From IMG/VR virus record IMGVR_UViG_3300034682_000209, positions 1 to 29,208 of that record: a stretch of DNA of 29,208 nt. One strand, given 5' to 3'. Below, piece after piece: positions 5,940-17,780 of this stretch. Below the pieces are notes generated by a model, which saw only the letters and a program-made list of their open reading frames with translations, made no database searches and was not told the DNA's origin. Origin of the DNA: a virus. The position numbers and the translations under genes are program-made. Every line of letters begins with the position of its first letter. The first letter of the stretch is position 1.

Positions 5940-6280
5940 CAGGCGCCTCCCTGCGGCATCACAGCAAAGGTGGCCCAGCCACCAGCGTCGGGAATGACAG
6001 GGCTGGTCACGATGTAGGGCTCCCCATCAACCACCAGGCCGCGCTCGCCTTCAGCAATGCCGGGCGCGTTGGCCACACACATGGATACCGTCAGGCGGCT
6101 GGCCGAGACGGTGTCGGGCATGTAGCCATCGTCAAGGCCCTGGTCGAAGATCACGCCAAAGGCAGGACCGCCATTCCAGATGGCCACGGCATTGGGTAGC
6201 AGGGACTGCACACCCGCGCTGATCTGCGCCTCGAGCGCCGCAAAGGGCGCGAGCACGGCACTGGGGTTGAAGGGTTGCAT
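5939..6280 (-). CDS. Head-tail joining protein, lambda FII-like
   Basis: The product has 113 residues, close to lambda gpFII (117). It has the expected layout: an N-terminal helix, then GGPAFGVIFDQGL, a beta-rich core, and a C-terminal GEPYIVTSPVIPDAGGWATFAVM segment that resembles the FII 'Gxxxx-V--V-PDDGG' end. The gene follows the major capsid gene directly (12 bp gap), as in lambda-like head clusters, and its stop overlaps the next start. The protein is predicted to bind the bottom of the head connector and form the interface for the tail. GAGGGTAGG upstream of the ATG at 6280 is a reasonable ribosome binding site. Confidence 0.7.
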   Translation of the reverse strand: MQPFNPSAVLAPFAALEAQISAGVQSLLPNAVAIWNGGPAFGVIFDQGLDDGYMPDTVSASRLTVSMCVANAPGIAEGERGLVVDGEPYIVTSPVIPDAGGWATFAVMPQGGA

Positions 6281-6292
6281 GGCGACCTACCC

Positions 6293-7333
6293 TCAGGCGC
6301 GCTTGGCGCGCTGCAGCATGCCCGGGCGGGTGCAGATGTGCAGCGGGTAGCTGTACACCTCGGGGCGCACCCAGGCCTGGCGATCCTTGTCCTGGACGAT
6401 CAGGGCATAGACGTCCTGGCCGGGCGTGTTGACGAAGGGCAGGAATTCGGCTGGCGAGAAGCCGACAGCGAAAGCGTCCGGCGCATCGACAGGGAAGAAT
6501 TGGCACTTGTCGGTGCCCACCGCTACCTTGCTGCCGTCGTCGGTACCACGGTAGTTGATGAACAGGATGTCGCCATAGCGGAACTGGCCAAAGGCCTGGC
6601 CCACGTTGTTGCGCAGATCTGTTGCCTCCTGCTGGCCCAGGAACGTGGAACGGGTTTCCTTGTTCTGGGTCAGGTCGTCGAAGAAGTTGTCTCCGCACAG
6701 GCCAACGGCATAGGTTTGACCAGGCAGCCAGGCGCCCTGGCTGCCCTTGATCATCTTGCGCACCACGTCGTTGCACTTCTTGCGAATCACACCGCCATCA
6801 GCCGTAGCGCTGGCGAAATCGAAATTGATCTCGGGCGGTTGTGCAATACCGAACTCGCCATACCAGTCGAAAATCTCGGTGCCATCGGCATCGAGCAACT
6901 TGCCCTGGACAGCACCAAGGCGCATGTTTTCGTGCGTGAGCTCCACTGCAGAGCGCAGGCCCGTCTTGCCGTTCATGATGTCCGCCACCTCGTTCTGCAC
7001 GGCCTGCAGTTCGCTGGTGGTGCCGTACGCACGGATGTTCTGCAGCTCGGCCGCGTACAAGGTCTTGCCACGGGCAATGCGGCTGGTCTCGAAATGGCGC
7101 ACGGTGCGCTTTTCGCGCTCCCCTTCTTCGATGGGCGCTCCGCGTTCGCTGGTCTGGATCAGGGACAGTACACCGCCCTTGTTCTCGATCGTCATCATCG
7201 TGGTGCGCAGCGGCTTGGGGGTGAAGATCCCCATGTTGCCCAGGAGACGCGGAATGTAGGGAGCCGCCTGGATAGCGGTGGACAGCTCGGACATGCCGAA
7301 GGCGCTGTGGTTGAAGATTCCGATATCGGCCAT
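6293..7333 (-). CDS. Major capsid protein, lambda gpE family
   Basis: The 346-residue protein starts at the ATG at 7333 (MADIGIFNHSAFGMSELSTA); GAGG lies seven bases upstream. It shows gpE-family features: LSTAIQAAPYIPRLLGNMGIF, ENKGGVLSLIQTSERGAP, a middle 'DGTEIFDWYGEFGI' typical of lambda-type capsids, and C-terminal GDILFINYRG... and CQFFPV...AFAVGFSPAEFLPFVNTPG. The length matches lambda gpE (341). It would assemble into the icosahedral procapsid on the scaffold encoded upstream and be stabilised by the gpD-like protein. The gene is flanked by two GCGCGC-N3-GCGCGC hairpins, one at the preceding gene's stop and one at its own. Confidence 0.95.
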   Translation of the reverse strand: MADIGIFNHSAFGMSELSTAIQAAPYIPRLLGNMGIFTPKPLRTTMMTIENKGGVLSLIQTSERGAPIEEGEREKRTVRHFETSRIARGKTLYAAELQNIRAYGTTSELQAVQNEVADIMNGKTGLRSAVELTHENMRLGAVQGKLLDADGTEIFDWYGEFGIAQPPEINFDFASATADGGVIRKKCNDVVRKMIKGSQGAWLPGQTYAVGLCGDNFFDDLTQNKETRSTFLGQQEATDLRNNVGQAFGQFRYGDILFINYRGTDDGSKVAVGTDKCQFFPVDAPDAFAVGFSPAEFLPFVNTPGQDVYALIVQDKDRQAWVRPEVYSYPLHICTRPGMLQRAKRA

Positions 7334-11391: not shown

Positions 11392-13338
11392 CTATTGCAT
11401 GCTGATAGGTGCAAATAGATTGGTCTTTTGCTGTGGCTTCTTGGGTTGAGCCAATGCGGTGTGCAAATCAGACTCTGATTCTTGGGGGGTCGGCGTGTAC
11501 GTGCCGTCAGGCTGACGCACCAACTGCTGCAGCAGGTATTGCTCGCGCGCAGTCCAATCCACCTCTCGGTGTCGATGCAGGCGCAGTTCCGGGTGATGTG
11601 CTGCGGCATAGCTGTAGCACCAGGTATCCAACGGCTCGTTGCGCGCGCCCTTCTTCACCACGTAGCGGTTTTTCGAGGGGTCGTAGGTCTCGGACACCAG
11701 GCCCGCGAAATAGAAGGCGTCCAGTTGATCACTGAAGTGAGTGACTCGCTCCTCAGGCTTGCGCTCCGCATCCACACTGAGCCGCCCGAACAGCCAGTCC
11801 TTGCAGGCCACCGTGCCCACCGTGTAGACCCGCACGCCCTTCTTGTCCGTCTTGCCCTTGTGGGTCACGTCCATCAGCTTGGGTTTGCTGAGCACGGGCG
11901 CGTTGTTGGCGATGGCCCCATGGATGGACATGGGCCGGCGCACCAGGGCCTGCCGGATGTAGTTCTTGACCTCGTCGGTACGGTGGCCGCCCTGGTCCTG
12001 GGCCATGGCTTCGACGCGCAGCAGCACGCCGTCCACCCGCTGGATGGCCTTGTTGAGCGCCTCGGTCAAGGCCACCCACACGGCGCCTTCGGCGGGGTCG
12101 CCTGGCAGCTCGAAGTAGTCCAGCGTCCAGAAGGCCATGCCGCGGCCCCAGCCGGTCAGGTGCACTGCCAGCCGGTCGTCCTGCGTGTCCACGCCTGCCG
12201 TAACGTAGAGCACGCCACGCGGCGCAACGCGCAGCACATAGGGCTCGGCCCGCTCCTGGATAACGTTGTGGCGCACCAGACGCATGGACTTGTCTTCCCA
12301 GGGCTCGGCCAGGCGGTCATTGACGAACGTCTTGAGCCGGGCCGGGTCGCCCTGCACGTCGAGCCACATTTCCACCAGGGTGGCCCAGGTCGGGCCCAGG
12401 CCGAACTGGTAGTAAAGGCAGTTGATGTGGTAGCCGCGGATCTTGCTGTCGGGGTTCTCGGCAACCCAGCGGCCGGCGGCGATCATGGCCGTCTTGTGGT
12501 GCTCATCGATGCAGCAGCCGTTTTCCTCGCAGACGTACCAGACCTTGGACCGATCCGGGCTCCAGTGCAGGCCTGACCATTTCAGCGGCTGCATGTGGCC
12601 GCAGTGCGGGCACGGGACGTGGTAGCGGCGCTGGTCGGACTTGAGGTATTTGGCCTCGATGCGACTCAGGCCCCGTACCTGGGGGCTGCTGATGTACACG
12701 CGCAGGCCGGTGGCCGGAAAAGCGCTGGTGCGGCCGTCGAACATCTCGACAGGGTCGTCTCCGCCCTTCCAGTTGGCAGCGATTTCATCAAGCTCATCGA
12801 CCAGCAGCTTGCGGATGGAGGAGGACTTGGCGCGCGAGGGAGAGCCGGCGTGCTCCATGTACAGCTGGCCGCCCACGAAGTCCTTGAACTCGCGCGTGTT
12901 GCTGGCATCCCGGCTGGCCACGCTGCGCAGCGCTCCGCGCACGGCGTCGCACTCCTCAATCATGGGGTTCAACTTCTGGTTGACCCACTTGTTCATTGAG
13001 ACTTCACCGGGCAACACAACCATCACCGGGCAGGGATCGTCGGTCATGGTGTGGCCCAGGATGTTGACCTCCACCTCTGTCTTGCCGAACTGGATGGGGA
13101 ACATCAAGACGATTTCATGCACCCCGGACTTGGGCGATGCGCAGTCCATGGGCTCGCGCAACGGCGGGTTGCGGCTGGTGCGCCATTGCCCGGTGATCGC
13201 GCTGCCCTTGCCCGAGAGCTTGCGCTCTGCATCTGCCCACTGGCTGACGGACCGGCGCTTGCGTGGCCCTATGGTCTTGGCCATGGCGCGCAGCGCAACG
13301 CTGGGACAACCGATGGTTCGTTGATCGACGGTACTCAA
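11392..13338 (-). CDS. Terminase large subunit, lambda gpA family
   Basis: The 648-residue product (lambda gpA 641) powers DNA packaging and cuts the concatemer. Visible parts: the typical SVSQWADAERKL...WRTSRNPPLREPMD start, a Walker-A-like MFPIQFGKTEV (residues 79-89), a Walker B LLVDELDE (178-185), a zinc-binding pair CPHC (243-246) with C270 and C275, and the nuclease start TAGVDTQDDRL (380-390). The start is probably the TTG at 13338, because AGAGGGGG lies just upstream and the TTGA overlaps the small-subunit stop. The first ATG (13284) has no Shine-Dalgarno. It acts with the small subunit encoded directly upstream. Confidence 0.95.
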   Translation of the reverse strand: MSTVDQRTIGCPSVALRAMAKTIGPRKRRSVSQWADAERKLSGKGSAITGQWRTSRNPPLREPMDCASPKSGVHEIVLMFPIQFGKTEVEVNILGHTMTDDPCPVMVVLPGEVSMNKWVNQKLNPMIEECDAVRGALRSVASRDASNTREFKDFVGGQLYMEHAGSPSRAKSSSIRKLLVDELDEIAANWKGGDDPVEMFDGRTSAFPATGLRVYISSPQVRGLSRIEAKYLKSDQRRYHVPCPHCGHMQPLKWSGLHWSPDRSKVWYVCEENGCCIDEHHKTAMIAAGRWVAENPDSKIRGYHINCLYYQFGLGPTWATLVEMWLDVQGDPARLKTFVNDRLAEPWEDKSMRLVRHNVIQERAEPYVLRVAPRGVLYVTAGVDTQDDRLAVHLTGWGRGMAFWTLDYFELPGDPAEGAVWVALTEALNKAIQRVDGVLLRVEAMAQDQGGHRTDEVKNYIRQALVRRPMSIHGAIANNAPVLSKPKLMDVTHKGKTDKKGVRVYTVGTVACKDWLFGRLSVDAERKPEERVTHFSDQLDAFYFAGLVSETYDPSKNRYVVKKGARNEPLDTWCYSYAAAHHPELRLHRHREVDWTAREQYLLQQLVRQPDGTYTPTPQESESDLHTALAQPKKPQQKTNLFAPISMQ

Positions 13339-13952
13339 GCGGCCCCCTCTTTCCTGCGCTTGCTGATCTCGGCGGCCAGCTTTTCAATGCCTGCGGCTAG
13401 CACGGCCCGGGCCACATCCATCTGGTCTTCCAGGATGCGCACAATCTCCTCGGCAGGCTGCCCCACGAGCATGGGGCCGATGCTGGCGGGCACGGTGTCC
13501 AGCACTGCGCCCACGCGTGCCCCCGCGTCCGCGAAGGCGCCCAGGGCCTCGTCGGCATCCATGAGCTGGCCCACTTCCTTGAAGTAGGCGATCTCCTCGC
13601 GGAGCGCAGAATAGTGCTCGCGCTTGGCCTTGCCGTCGTGGAACTTGAAGCCGCTGCCCGTGGCGCCTGGCTCTGATGCGGTGGCCTCGCCGTCGTCCTC
13701 TGGTTCTTCTGGCGTGGAGGCCAGTGCGCCCTGCCTGCCAGCGGCATGGCGGGCGGCTACGGCGGCTCGGCTGGGGTCCTTGGTGTCGTTGATCAGGCGG
13801 ATGGACTCGGCCACGCGCACACGCTTGCCGTCCTCGCTCATCACCAGGCGCTGCTCATTCTTGAGCTGCCAAGCGAAGCGGCCCTTGTAGCCCATGTGAC
13901 GGTTGAACTCGCCCAGGCTCATCTCTTCAGGATGCATGCGGTGCTCGCTCAT
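13335..13952 (-). CDS. Terminase small subunit, Nu1-like
   Basis: This 205-residue protein starts at the ATG at 13952, which overlaps the preceding stop by 4 bp (ATGA), and its own stop overlaps the large-subunit TTG. The N-terminal part (MSLGEFNRHMGYKGRFAWQLKNEQRLVM) resembles a winged-helix DNA-binding segment in which the phage genome recognition site would be read. A Ala/Glu/Asp-rich linker follows (about 85-105), then HYSALREEIAYFKEVGQLMDADEA and a C-terminal helix, matching Nu1-like small subunits that contact the large subunit through their C-terminus. Assignment rests on these features and its place directly before the large subunit. Confidence 0.8.
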   Translation of the reverse strand: MSEHRMHPEEMSLGEFNRHMGYKGRFAWQLKNEQRLVMSEDGKRVRVAESIRLINDTKDPSRAAVAARHAAGRQGALASTPEEPEDDGEATASEPGATGSGFKFHDGKAKREHYSALREEIAYFKEVGQLMDADEALGAFADAGARVGAVLDTVPASIGPMLVGQPAEEIVRILEDQMDVARAVLAAGIEKLAAEISKRRKEGAA

Positions 13953-14776
13953 ACTCCGGCGGCCTCCCTCACGCGATAGCGCAGGCGCTTCTCAAGGTAG
14001 TTCTGTGCGTCAGCACGCTTCGCGATGGCCTCTCCCTGCAGTCGCACGCTGTAGTGGGCGCGCTTCACGAACATCAGCACGGGCCGCACATCCGCGCCGC
14101 CGGTCCCGCTCGCGGCCCAGATGCCCGGGGCCAGGTGGGACGTGCGGGCGTCGGCTTCTCCCATGGCGGTGGTGCGCGCGCCGCCGCGCGCCTTGCCGTA
14201 GGCCACGAAGTAGCGCCGGCCCGCCGCCTTCTTGGTGCCCTTGTGCACGCGCTTGTAGCCCTTCTCGGTCATGTTGGCCTTGTAGCCCTGCTCCCCGAAG
14301 GCCTGGAAATACGCCAGCAGCTGCACCAGAAAGCTGCCCTTGAGGTTGCCGCGTCCGTCGTCGCTGCCCGGGTAGGGCGTGGCCGGTATGGCTGTCTGCA
14401 TGCCGTTGGGCAGGATGCCCACGCGACGCAGCGCCACCTCGCTGCGCTTGTCGCGGCGGGTGCCGCCCTCTCCCTGAGCGCGCAGGATCTTCTGCGGATC
14501 AATCCCCTTGCCGCCCATGTAGTCCGGCGCGATCGAGGCCGACAGGCGCGCCGCCGTGGCCATCTTCACGCGCGGCGAGCGCAGGATGTAGTCAGTGGGG
14601 CGGTCGAACTGGGCGCGCATCTCGGCCTGCATGGCACGCCGCACCTCGAATGCCGTGTCGTTGATGGCCTTGGCGTAGGCACCTGCCGCCTGCGATCCGG
14701 TCAGGCCGTGCAGCTGGGCCAGCAGTTCGGCCTGGCCCAGCATCCGGGCCGAGATCTCGACAGAGAAGCCGCTCAT
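13949..14776 (-). CDS. Phage morphogenesis protein of uncertain role (minor tail Z/neck-like)
   Basis: The product has 275 residues from the ATG at 14776, preceded by AAGGGAG. The N-terminus, MSGFSVEISARMLGQAEL then AAGAYAKAINDTAFEVRRAMQAEM and FDRPTDYILRS, follows the plan of lambda Z/neck-type proteins ('A--A-n-ta---r-am'). A basic C-terminal half ends in VLMFVKRAHYSVRLQGEAI and a helical tail. In lambda gene Z lies after FII, but here this gene precedes the terminase genes, joined by ATGA overlaps on both sides. A virion assembly role is inferred from similarity of pattern and its place in the late operon; I cannot pin the family. Confidence 0.65.
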   Translation of the reverse strand: MSGFSVEISARMLGQAELLAQLHGLTGSQAAGAYAKAINDTAFEVRRAMQAEMRAQFDRPTDYILRSPRVKMATAARLSASIAPDYMGGKGIDPQKILRAQGEGGTRRDKRSEVALRRVGILPNGMQTAIPATPYPGSDDGRGNLKGSFLVQLLAYFQAFGEQGYKANMTEKGYKRVHKGTKKAAGRRYFVAYGKARGGARTTAMGEADARTSHLAPGIWAASGTGGADVRPVLMFVKRAHYSVRLQGEAIAKRADAQNYLEKRLRYRVREAAGV

Positions 14777-15012
14777 ACCGTGCTCCCTTCCTCGGCTGCT
14801 GTGTTGCTCACCAGGAGTGCCTCCAGGCCCTGGGCCCGGAACTGCGGACTGCCGCGCAGCGTGAACTCCAGGGCACGCAAGCCAGGGAAGATGCCGGCGG
14901 CCTGCAGCTGCTGCACCAGCCCGTGCAGCTGCGGCCATGCCTTGACCACTTCACGCACCAGAGCAGCGTTCTCAGCCGTGCAGCCGATCACCCTCTTTTC
15001 TTCTCTCTCCAT
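14773..15012 (-). CDS. Small protein at the head of the packaging operon, unknown function
   Basis: A 79-residue protein starts at the ATG at 15012 with AAAGGA six bases upstream; a longer frame to the right runs into the repeat array and looks non-coding. The sequence, MEREEKRVIGCTAENAALVR then VVKAWPQLHGLVQQLQAAGI and LRALEFTLRGSPQFRAQG, is helical and soluble, without known motifs. Its stop overlaps the next start by 4 bp (ATGA), so it is the first gene of the coupled packaging set. It lies directly beside the TGTGCGS repeat array. I do not recognise the family. Confidence 0.75.
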   Translation of the reverse strand: MEREEKRVIGCTAENAALVREVVKAWPQLHGLVQQLQAAGIFPGLRALEFTLRGSPQFRAQGLEALLVSNTAAEEGSTV

Positions 15013-15034: not shown

Positions 15035-15284
15035 TGTGCGGTATGTAGTGCGGCTACTTGTGCGCCGTGAAAATTACGTAAGTGCTTGTCGCGCTTGATG
15101 TGTGCGCTATGTGCGGTATGTGCGCCATGCTCACGTGCAGGCACATGCGCGCACCTGCGCAGGTGTGCGCACACGCCTGCGCCCACACACATAAGGAGGG
15201 ATGGCGCACATGCCGCACATGCCTTTGAAATCAATGAGTTAATGGCGCACACGAAGCCGCACGGCATGCCGCACATAGCGCACA
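15035..15284. repeat. Array of direct and inverted TGTGCGS repeats; candidate origin or packaging site
   Basis: This gene-free stretch (15013-15311) is packed with copies of TGTGCG followed by G or C. Forward copies or near-copies lie at 15035, 15048, 15059, 15101, 15110, 15119 and 15164. Inverted copies or near-copies lie at 15149, 15203, 15212, 15244, 15256, 15268 and 15277. Two larger inverted repeats are nested: 15101-15120 against 15265-15284 (19 of 20 match) and 15108-15126 against 15203-15221 (17 of 19). A perfect 14-bp palindrome, CACCTGCGCAGGTG, sits between them at 15152-15165. AT-richer patches occur at 15068-15083 and 15222-15243. Such iterons fit a replication origin bound by the primase-helicase encoded next door, or a terminase recognition/cos region. 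Confidence 0.8.
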
Positions 15285-15311: not shown

Positions 15312-17780
15312 TCACAGAGCACCTCCCTTGGCGTCTTTCATCGAACGCTTGAAGACATCGATGCGCTCGCCCAGCCATTCCGTCTCAGGGCGGCCGGGCG
15401 GTAGCTCCTGGCCGCCGGGCAGATAGCAGACGCTGGCCGGACCCACCGTCCGGTAGGAATCCAGCACGTAGCGTTTGCGCTCAATGCCGGCCTGGTGCTT
15501 GCGCTTGAGGGCGTTGGAGAACCTGGGCAAAGTCAACGCCTTCTCGTTGGTATTGCCGCACCACCACTTGTAGAGCTCGTAGATGTCCGTGGTCAGGCAC
15601 GGCGTCAGCAGGCCCGGGGCGCCCTTGCCCGGGAAGCCGGGCACATCCCCCGCCTCGAAGGCCCGCACGAACTTGCTCGGGCTGTCCAGGCTCAATGCGA
15701 TGAGCTCCTGTTTGGCCTCGGTCATCGGGGGCTGCGTGGCGTTGTCAAAATCGCCAACATCCCAGCCCAGCAGGAAGTCGTGCAGCGCCGCGACACCTCC
15801 GGCATCGATCTCCGCCTTGACGGCCCGGTAGAACTCGGCGCTCAGCTTGGCTGGCGTCCAGATGATGGCGTGGCGCCGGTCGTCCTCCTCCAGAACCACG
15901 GGCATGGCCTCGTTGGACAGGAACACCATGTTGACGTGGTTGGCCTCGTAGTAGGCCGCCATGTTCTTCGGGTTGATTCGGATCTGGTCCCCGGTGATGA
16001 AGGCCTTGAGCTTGTTCTTGACGTGGTACAGGTCCGAGCGGGCCACCACTTCATCGGCGATCAGGAACAGCTTGCGGCTGGCCCAGTCATTGAACTTGTC
16101 CTCGATGGCGGACTGGTCGATGGTCCAGCCGTATTTGCCGAAGATGGCCATGTAGGCCTCGAAGAACATGTTCTTGCCCGTGCCCTGGGGCCCGTGCACG
16201 ACGATGGTGGATTTCATCTTGGCGCCAGGGTGCTGCAGCGGGTAGGCCAGCCAGTTGATCGCCCAGTTGTAGAGCGCATCCGCGTTGCCGTCGCCACTGC
16301 ACATGTGCCACAGCAGCTCCAGCAGCTTCTCGCAGCTGCCGGGCTTGGGCCGGGTGGGCCAGCCGTCCCACAGATTGCAGGTGATGGATTCGTCAGTGCA
16401 GGCCGGGTCGAAGCCCACCTGCTCGGGACGCACGATCTGGCGGTCTGGGTGCTCGCTCCAGGTCCGGTAGAGATCGCGGCTCAGGCAGATGTGACCCATG
16501 TCTGTAAGGGTCACAAGCCGGTGCTCATCGTGGTCGAACACCGCGCCGCCCTGGCCGTACACCAGGGCAAAACGCTCCAGCAGTTCGTCCAGGCTGTCGA
16601 TGGGCCGCAGCTGCTCCAGCACCGTGCCACCCCCCTCCCCCCGGCTGGGCTGCAGGCGCTGCGCCCCGCTGCGCGTGCGCCAGCCCAACTCCAGCAGGCG
16701 GGCCTCGACCTGGGCGCGCACCACATGCAGGCCTTCGGACATGTGCAGGTCGTTGAAGTCGTTGAGCTTGACGCCGTTGTCCAGCCAGCCGGCGCGCAAC
16801 GCCATCGGGTCGGCAAAGGCGGGCGCCACCCACTGGCCGTCCACCTGCATGGCGGCGGTGCTGGCCATGGTCATGCCGGCATTGCCCGCGTTGTGGTCCT
16901 GGCCGCACTTCGGGCAGGCCCGGCCATCGGGCAGCCACACCCGGGCCCGGCACTCCACATGCTTGCCCAGGCGCTGGCTCTCGGCCTCGTCCTTGGCGTG
17001 GCAGCGCTGGGTGTTGTCGTCGTCGGCGCACATCAGCAGGCGCACGCCCTTGTAGCGAGCGCGCAGAGCCTCGGCCACCACCGGCACATTGTTGGCGTCG
17101 AAGGCCACGGCCACCGGCAGGCTCGTGGCCATGTGCAGGCTGGCCGCAGTGGCATAGCCCTCGGCGACCAGCACCACGCTGCCAGGCACCGGCATGCCGA
17201 TCAGGTGGAAGCGCCCTTTCTTGACCAGACCCAGCGGCCAGTATTCCTTCTCTCGCGCGCCAGGCTTGCGGTCCTTGCCCCGGATGATCTGCAGGCCGTG
17301 GATGTGACCCATGGCATCCAGCAGCGGAATGACCATGGCGCCGCTGGGCGAGTAGCGCACGCCGTAGCCGCCCACACCCTTGCGGGCCAGGTAGTCGCTG
17401 TCGCCGGTGGGCTGGCATTTCTTCCAAGCGGCAGTGGCCCTGGCCGCTGCGCGCTCGGCCTCGGCCTTGCGCTCTGCCTCGGCGCGGCGCTTGTCTTCGG
17501 CCAGGCGCTTGCGCAGCGCCTCGGACTGCTCGCGGCTGAGCTCCGACTTGCGGATCTCGACCTTGCGGGCATTGTTCTCGGCGCCGCTCCAGACGCCGAA
17601 GCTGCCGACGATCAGGTCATTGCCGTTGTCCAGCCGCATCTCGTGCAGCAGATACCAGCCGGGCTTTTCCTTGCCCCGGCCCTCGACCCGGCAGCGGCGC
17701 AGGCGCCCCACTTCGAGCCGATCCACCTCCAGGCCGGCCTGGACGAGCTGGCCCAGGACGTCGTCATAGTTCGAGGACAT
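15312..17780 (-). CDS. Phage primase-helicase (Toprim plus SF3/D5-like helicase)
   Basis: The 822-residue protein would start DNA replication. The N-terminal part (1-120) ends in a charged coiled segment (ARKVEIRKSELSREQSEALR onwards). A Toprim-type primase core follows: VAEGYATAASL (205-215), AFDANN (226-231) and CADDD (251-255). A Cys pair CPKC (289-292) suggests a zinc site. The C-terminal helicase has Walker A GPQGTGKN (530-537), Walker B LFLIADEV (571-578) and a sensor-like NMVFLSNEAMPV, in a DUF5906/D5-type ATPase. This architecture is like the P4 alpha protein, which also recognises iterons at its origin. The start codon at 17780 lies three bases after the stop of the ORF upstream, with GGGAG about ten bases ahead. 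It ends beside the repeat array. Confidence 0.95.
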   Translation of the reverse strand: MSSNYDDVLGQLVQAGLEVDRLEVGRLRRCRVEGRGKEKPGWYLLHEMRLDNGNDLIVGSFGVWSGAENNARKVEIRKSELSREQSEALRKRLAEDKRRAEAERKAEAERAAARATAAWKKCQPTGDSDYLARKGVGGYGVRYSPSGAMVIPLLDAMGHIHGLQIIRGKDRKPGAREKEYWPLGLVKKGRFHLIGMPVPGSVVLVAEGYATAASLHMATSLPVAVAFDANNVPVVAEALRARYKGVRLLMCADDDNTQRCHAKDEAESQRLGKHVECRARVWLPDGRACPKCGQDHNAGNAGMTMASTAAMQVDGQWVAPAFADPMALRAGWLDNGVKLNDFNDLHMSEGLHVVRAQVEARLLELGWRTRSGAQRLQPSRGEGGGTVLEQLRPIDSLDELLERFALVYGQGGAVFDHDEHRLVTLTDMGHICLSRDLYRTWSEHPDRQIVRPEQVGFDPACTDESITCNLWDGWPTRPKPGSCEKLLELLWHMCSGDGNADALYNWAINWLAYPLQHPGAKMKSTIVVHGPQGTGKNMFFEAYMAIFGKYGWTIDQSAIEDKFNDWASRKLFLIADEVVARSDLYHVKNKLKAFITGDQIRINPKNMAAYYEANHVNMVFLSNEAMPVVLEEDDRRHAIIWTPAKLSAEFYRAVKAEIDAGGVAALHDFLLGWDVGDFDNATQPPMTEAKQELIALSLDSPSKFVRAFEAGDVPGFPGKGAPGLLTPCLTTDIYELYKWWCGNTNEKALTLPRFSNALKRKHQAGIERKRYVLDSYRTVGPASVCYLPGGQELPPGRPETEWLGERIDVFKRSMKDAKGGAL

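Follow-up and report, generated by a model that had tools for sequence, protein, structure and literature searches.

The window, by which we mean the whole stretch of 29,208 nucleotides of viral DNA analysed here, contains a dense array of short repeats that follows a primase-helicase gene. The order of transcription is primase, array, a tail-completion-like gene, the small terminase subunit (TerS) and the large terminase subunit (TerL), which places the array one gene away from TerS. The initial annotation had set it directly after the primase and before the terminase operon. Its position behind the primase holds, as the array begins 27 bp past the stop codon, and one gene intervenes on the other side. 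The upstream gene, initially described as P4-alpha-like, encodes a primase-helicase to which Pfam assigns DUF5906 and Toprim_3, with no match to a P4-alpha model. The window encodes TerS, TerL, portal and protease, and the element thus has packaging genes of its own, in which respect it is not a satellite. The features of the locus, listed in the order of transcription, are as follows.

15312-17780, minus strand: primase-helicase of 822 amino acids with a Toprim_3 primase part and a DUF5906 helicase (phrog_2249), the proposed initiator
15315-15593, minus strand: C-terminal winged-helix domain of the primase-helicase (codons 730-822), the proposed iteron binder
15423-15488, minus strand: predicted wing hairpin (codons 765-786) with the covarying residues R768 (15477-15479), G780 and S783 (15432-15434)
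15276-15284, minus strand: iteron unit 1, TGTGCGCTA, left arm (window and relatives)
15267-15275, minus strand: iteron unit 2, TGTGCGGCA (window and relatives)
15255-15263, minus strand: iteron unit 3, CGTGCGGCT, degenerate (position kept in relatives)
15243-15251, minus strand: iteron unit 4, TGTGCGCCA (window and relatives)
15229-15241, plus strand: exact match (AATCAATGAGTTA) to WATCAANNNNTTR, the IHF consensus, located where units 4 and 5 are 32 bp apart from start to start (place kept in relatives)
15211-15219, minus strand: iteron unit 5, TGTGCGGCA, inner tandem pair
15202-15210, minus strand: iteron unit 6, TGTGCGCCA, inner tandem pair
15128-15201, no strand: centre of the proposed origin, GC-rich and rich in alternating purine/pyrimidine (from composition and stability)
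15119-15127, plus strand: iteron unit 7, TGTGCGCCA, inner tandem triple
15110-15118, plus strand: iteron unit 8, TGTGCGGTA, inner tandem triple
15101-15109, plus strand: iteron unit 9, TGTGCGCTA, inner tandem triple
15079-15091, minus strand: IHF-like site of degenerate sequence, CGACAAGCACTTA, located where units 9 and 10 are 42-43 bp apart from start to start
15059-15067, plus strand: iteron unit 10, TGTGCGCCG
15047-15055, plus strand: iteron unit 11, AGTGCGGCT, degenerate
15035-15043, plus strand: iteron unit 12, TGTGCGGTA
13949-14938, minus strand: tail-completion/minor-tail-like gene (phrog_1924), first after the array; its true start may be near 15006
13335-13952, minus strand: terminase small subunit (phrog_57)
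11392-13338, minus strand: terminase large subunit, gpA type

Counted on both strands, the motif TGTGCGS occurs 12 times exactly at 15035-15284 and 14 times in the rest of the 29.2 kb, and any other 250-bp segment holds at most one exact copy. Dinucleotide-matched random sequence yields a mean of 0.98 and a maximum of 7 copies (5000 trials), in agreement with the earlier statement that the order exceeds expectation. The earlier count of about fourteen copies or near-copies in both orientations is refined to 12 exact copies of the 7-bp motif and to a repeat unit of 9 bp, TGTGCGSYA. The array is composed of twelve such 9-bp units at conserved positions, the two degenerate ones included, with six units per orientation flanking a centre. 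Units of the first orientation start 27, 36, 48, 60, 92 and 101 bp after the primase stop, and those of the opposite orientation, beyond a centre of about 74-75 bp, at 184, 193, 202, 244, 256 and 268 bp. Two exact copies of TGTGCGS within the central palindrome, at 15164 and 15167, are off the conserved unit positions. The long inverted repeats were recovered at 15109-15128/15201-15220 and at 15101-15120/15265-15284 (19/20 each), with another at 15028-15046/15208-15226 (84%). The perfect 14-bp palindrome CACCTGCGCAGGTG was also found, at 15152-15165, and is overlapped by a second perfect palindrome, GTGTGCGCACAC, at 15163-15174. The central palindrome was considered as a key element and rejected, being absent from more distant relatives. 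GC skew, which had been suggested as a check, displays no clear switch at the array in the 29.2-kb window, which is part of the element.

Two of the steps between units are long and contain IHF-like sites, and the IHF consensus matches in these two gaps face opposite ways. The site between units 9 and 10 is degenerate in the window, and several relatives have an exact IHF consensus, AATCAAGCACTTA, in the same step. Among 97 arrays, the exact consensus is present 0.48 times per array, compared with 0.006 in shuffles, and occurs at fixed places; it is missing in many CA/CC-type arrays. The centres of the arrays are characterised by alternating purine/pyrimidine (0.70 versus 0.53 in random stretches of the same contigs; p<0.05 in 59 of 77 loci), and the longest alternating run is 20 versus 6.7 in controls. 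In the window, the centre is GC-rich and its thermostability is above the window average, and the easily melted stretches of the array are the IHF-like gaps and the end beside the tail gene. Because the centre is GC-rich, alternating and more thermostable than average, it does not constitute a classical AT-rich unwinding element, and an element of this kind at the centre was rejected. As a separate observation, GCGTATATA or a similar TATA stretch is located just ahead of the inner tandem triple in many relatives (L050, L084, L090, L097 and L104 in our numbering of loci).

Relatives were collected by scanning the primase once against genome contigs and once against viral contigs, which resulted in 100 loci from Delftia, Comamonas, Curvibacter, Malikia, Rhodoferax, Variovorax, Pseudacidovorax, Methylococcaceae and others. 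An array was found right behind the primase stop in nearly all of the approximately 97 homologues with enough flank (41-99% identity). The search beside homologous primases, proposed in the initial annotation, thus returned arrays almost without exception, with a different unit sequence. The layout is fixed: the unit finder gives conserved starts at about 0, 9, 21, 33, 65 and 74 in one orientation and at about 0, 9, 18, 61, 73 and 82-84 in the other. The unit sequence, by contrast, changes, and it switches in all copies of one phage together. The variants comprise TGTGCGGTA, TGTGCGCTA, TGTGGGGTA, TGTGAGGCA, TGTGCCGGG, TGTGCAGGG and TTACGCTTA, and a further set of TGTGAAGGG, TGAGACGGG, TGTATACGG, ATATTACCG, ACCACGGCA and CGCTACGGG. 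Because the unit turns over in this way, no DNA-level match is expected, and phage records queried with the nucleotide sequence of the array gave none. Besides the units that match the primase, the arrays have in common their IHF-like gaps and a centre of the same general kind, and nothing further; no conserved nick-like sequence was seen in them. In L068 and L069 the array is displaced by a gene inserted between it and the primase, the arrays of L010, L088 and L152 are degenerate or mixed, and L020 is a fragmentary relative.

Several individual loci deserve separate mention. Two unit types are present in L088 from about 0 to 340 bp past the primase stop (2065), TGTTCCGCA in the arms and CATGTAACG-like inside, next to a primase with K768, and this origin may have been caught between two specificities. 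In the phages pAN, Turba and SC_9 (L106, L111 and L112), the outermost right-arm units, 260-305 bp past the primase stop, are reversed with respect to the window family, and the inner pair and inner triple keep the window-family orientation. In Stenotrophomonas phage S1 (L104), the annotated gene gp2 overlies the array at 2454-2804 and is probably not a real gene.

The C-terminal domain of the primase-helicase was analysed in AlphaFold2 models of residues 676-822 (mean pLDDT 86) and of the full protein (88). A winged helix is predicted, with helices at 730-743 and 751-762 and hairpin strands at 765-773 and 777-786. Residues 768 and 780/783 lie on opposite strands of the predicted wing, and judged from the limits of the strands residue 768 should face 782-783 across the hairpin, so that two neighbouring bases would be tracked by two neighbouring side-chain positions. 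A Foldseek search with the domain revealed weak matches, the best of them to the initiator Cdc6/Orc1 bound to origin DNA (E 0.02, prob 0.98) and to the DNA-binding domain of RFX (E 0.44, prob 0.80); they are taken as no more than consistent with a winged helix. The top match of a profile search against PDB sequences, 7ola 'DNA primase', was not significant (E 0.09).

Along the primase, the local divergence that accompanies unit class is greatest around residues ~615-630 and ~745-790. Among the 822 columns, the strongest association with bases 5-6 of the unit was found for residues 780, 783 and 768. Of the 65 sequences that have a C at base 5, 64 carry arginine at position 768; Q768 accompanies G at base 5 (2/2), S768 or P768 accompanies A at base 5 in AG units (4/4), and I768 or V768 is found in AA units (2/2). 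Residue 783 is related to base 6: serine, alanine or glycine occurs with G, arginine with C (8/8), and mostly threonine with A. Shared ancestry was removed by placing changes by parsimony on a tree made from primase residues 1-700 only. The tree then has 5 branches with a change of base 5 and 6 with a change of residue 768, and on 5 branches both occur (hypergeometric p=1.2e-8; next column 2.6e-4). For base 6 the best column is residue 780 (5.5e-5), with residue 783 fourth. These p-values are rough, because branches are weighted equally and 5-6 independent switches carry each test. No comparable column was found in TerS, TerL, the tail gene or CII on the same test (best 2.6e-4), and for base 5 on the same taxa TerS reached 8e-3 versus 3.5e-7 for primase residue 768. 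Newly fetched loci, many of them related to the fitted ones, were then compared with the rule. Wherever it could be evaluated, residue 768 agrees with the unit, H768 with a G5 unit in L151 included, and residue 783 agrees in every locus but L151; the loci that fit include new CC (L154) and CA (L147) units. The exceptions are L151, which retains S783 despite an apparent A at base 6, and L056, which retains R768 despite A at base 5. Separately, the stretch at ~615-630, located in the helicase domain, diverges with unit class, and A625 is among the top columns.

Arrays also occur apart from the packaging genes of this family. A 9,720-bp Roseomonas plasmid without an annotated terminase has an array behind a DUF5906 gene, with the unit TGTCCAGGG. 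In P. stutzeri phage pAN, an array with the unit TGTGTTGGG follows a distant primase, the terminase is of P27/HK97 type, and the P27-type TerS is at the other end of the record. Arrays also follow the distant primases of Turba, SC_9, Halomonas H4907, Marinobacter PS3 and P. aeruginosa U5. No array was seen behind the DUF927 gene of plasmid pTAO100. A further observation concerns plasmid NZ_CP104987 (pW47-1, 8,955 bp; L110), in which GGTTACAAC units around an AT-rich centre lie at ~6280-6680, downstream of a DUF5906/PriCT-2 gene; the record may represent a circular element of PICI type that was deposited as a plasmid. A search of E. coli with the pW47-1 primase region gave no more than an 8% match and was uninformative.

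The initial annotation had offered three readings of the array: a replication origin with iterons for the primase, a terminase or cos site, or both. As a terminase recognition site (cosB/cosQ-like), its repeats would be bound by TerS, IHF would bend the DNA and packaging would start there. The lambda cosB has the order R3-I1-R2-R1, with an IHF site among the TerS-binding repeats, and the locus resembles it in having repeats with an IHF-like site between them upstream of gpA/lambda-type terminase genes; moreover, no other obvious cos gap is present between the primase and TerS. The repeats here are, however, about four times as many as in cosB, and they are separated from the TerS-TerL operon by one gene. 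In this phage group the primase, the array and the terminase genes nearly always lie next to one another, and linkage alone is therefore not decisive; the covariation and the plasmid decide. The iterons co-vary with primase residue 768 and not with TerS or TerL, and the Roseomonas array lies beside a primase on a plasmid without an annotated terminase. In pAN ~2 kb separate the array from the ends of the record, and these ends flank the P27-family TerS like the cos of HK97-type phages. The distance from array to TerL is 7 kb in L140 and 4 kb in L192, and the S1 record begins 39 bp before the primase, outside the array, with the reservation that record ends may not be physical. A negative control of terminase relatives without the primase was empty because all 63 usable loci (63/63) had a primase, and a protein search for TerS in phages gave no match. 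A terminase site as the main function finds no support, and we regard it as highly improbable.

A double use, in which the origin would at the same time contain the packaging site or overlap with it, would suit the near-constant adjacency of primase, array and terminase as well as an array that fills the space between primase and tail gene. It meets the same counterevidence, and the conserved parts of the arrays, with no nick-like sequence seen among them, offer nothing beyond an origin; we consider it unlikely. The repeats could also serve as operators for the transcriptional control of the packaging genes by the primase or another regulator, or as copy-number control sites, without being a replication start. 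Iteron arrays often serve copy-number control too, and the position ahead of the late operon would permit regulation. Twelve sites in a two-armed geometry round a centre, matched by an initiator-type helicase, nevertheless correspond to the anatomy of an origin, and the array persists where the downstream genes vary, so that we give an operator function very little credence. By comparison, the array is very probably the replication origin of the phage, recognised by its own primase-helicase through the C-terminal winged helix, because the units track the primase, the terminases give no signal and the array occurs without an annotated terminase or with unrelated packaging genes. The origin with iterons for the primase, as initially suggested, is thus strongly supported.

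A comparison with known systems reveals similarities at the level of layout. In satellite P4, the alpha protein is a primase-helicase that recognises the short iterons of the origin through its C-terminal domain, and P4 replication additionally requires the distant crr region. The present protein is also a primase-helicase with its C-terminal domain as the predicted iteron binder; the repeat sequence and arrangement differ, as do the DUF5906/Toprim_3 domains. Iteron plasmids of the RepA, TrfA and pi types share tandem short iterons and an initiator with winged helices. By contrast, the initiator here is itself a primase-helicase, the arms are two and opposed, and the centre has no AT-rich unwinding element. 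The closest layout is that of PICI and SaPI origins. A two-armed iteron origin has been described as unique to PICI satellites (PMC6092414; Fillol-Salom 2018), and in SaPI origins repeats in opposite orientations direct two self-loading helicases head to head (PMC9894130). As in these elements, the origin proposed here is directly 3' of the primase/initiator-helicase gene (27 bp in the window, the same in relatives), two iteron sets surround a central region (six units per side, ~75-bp centre), the iteron sequence varies between elements and the primase-helicase modules are of a related kind. The earlier remark that no described consensus equals the array is therefore right for the sequence, and the layout is one already described. 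The differences are that the carriers here are complete tailed temperate phages, which encode a capsid and a terminase of their own, that the centre is GC-rich and alternating instead of AT-rich, and that twelve units at fixed spacing have IHF-like sites in the gaps.

In the mechanism that we propose, the C-terminal winged helix of the primase-helicase would bind the 9-bp iterons. Two helicase rings would be guided head to head onto the ~75-bp centre by the inner tandem pair together with the inner triple of opposite orientation. Bending of the DNA, in which IHF probably acts at the two IHF-like gaps, would bring in the outer iterons, which would nucleate assembly; in arrays without IHF sites, the flexibility of the DNA may suffice to fold them in. 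The centre, a flexible, Z-prone alternating tract, would open between the rings, and the Toprim primase part would prime synthesis. In support of the origin, the computation shows an array that keeps a fixed geometry and accompanies the primase, iteron bases that co-vary with residues of the wing, and matches to the IHF consensus. Against it stand the thermostable centre, unlike ordinary unwinding elements, the exceptions to the rule in L056 and L151, the degenerate or mixed arrays of L010, L088 and L152, and the IHF-like sites missing in many CA/CC-type arrays.

Our literature search, which left much subscription literature outside its reach, returned no description of such an origin in such phages. 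We tentatively put forward, as a possibility somewhat short of even, that the arrays represent a large, undescribed class of temperate-phage origins, in which single wing swaps rewrite specificity (768 for base 5, 783/780 for base 6) within a rigid 12-site layout, with IHF shaping both arms and opening at a GC-rich, Z-prone tract. The GC-rich centre challenges the assumption that AT-rich DNA is needed for the opening of such origins. A layout known from PICI satellites that is also present in complete phages and on a small plasmid, there next to DUF5906 primases, links satellite and phage replicons. With about 100 natural initiator-iteron pairs that display matching single-residue and single-base changes, the evolution of origin specificity becomes directly testable, and the covarying pair allows a prediction of which phages or satellites resident in one cell could activate one another's origins.
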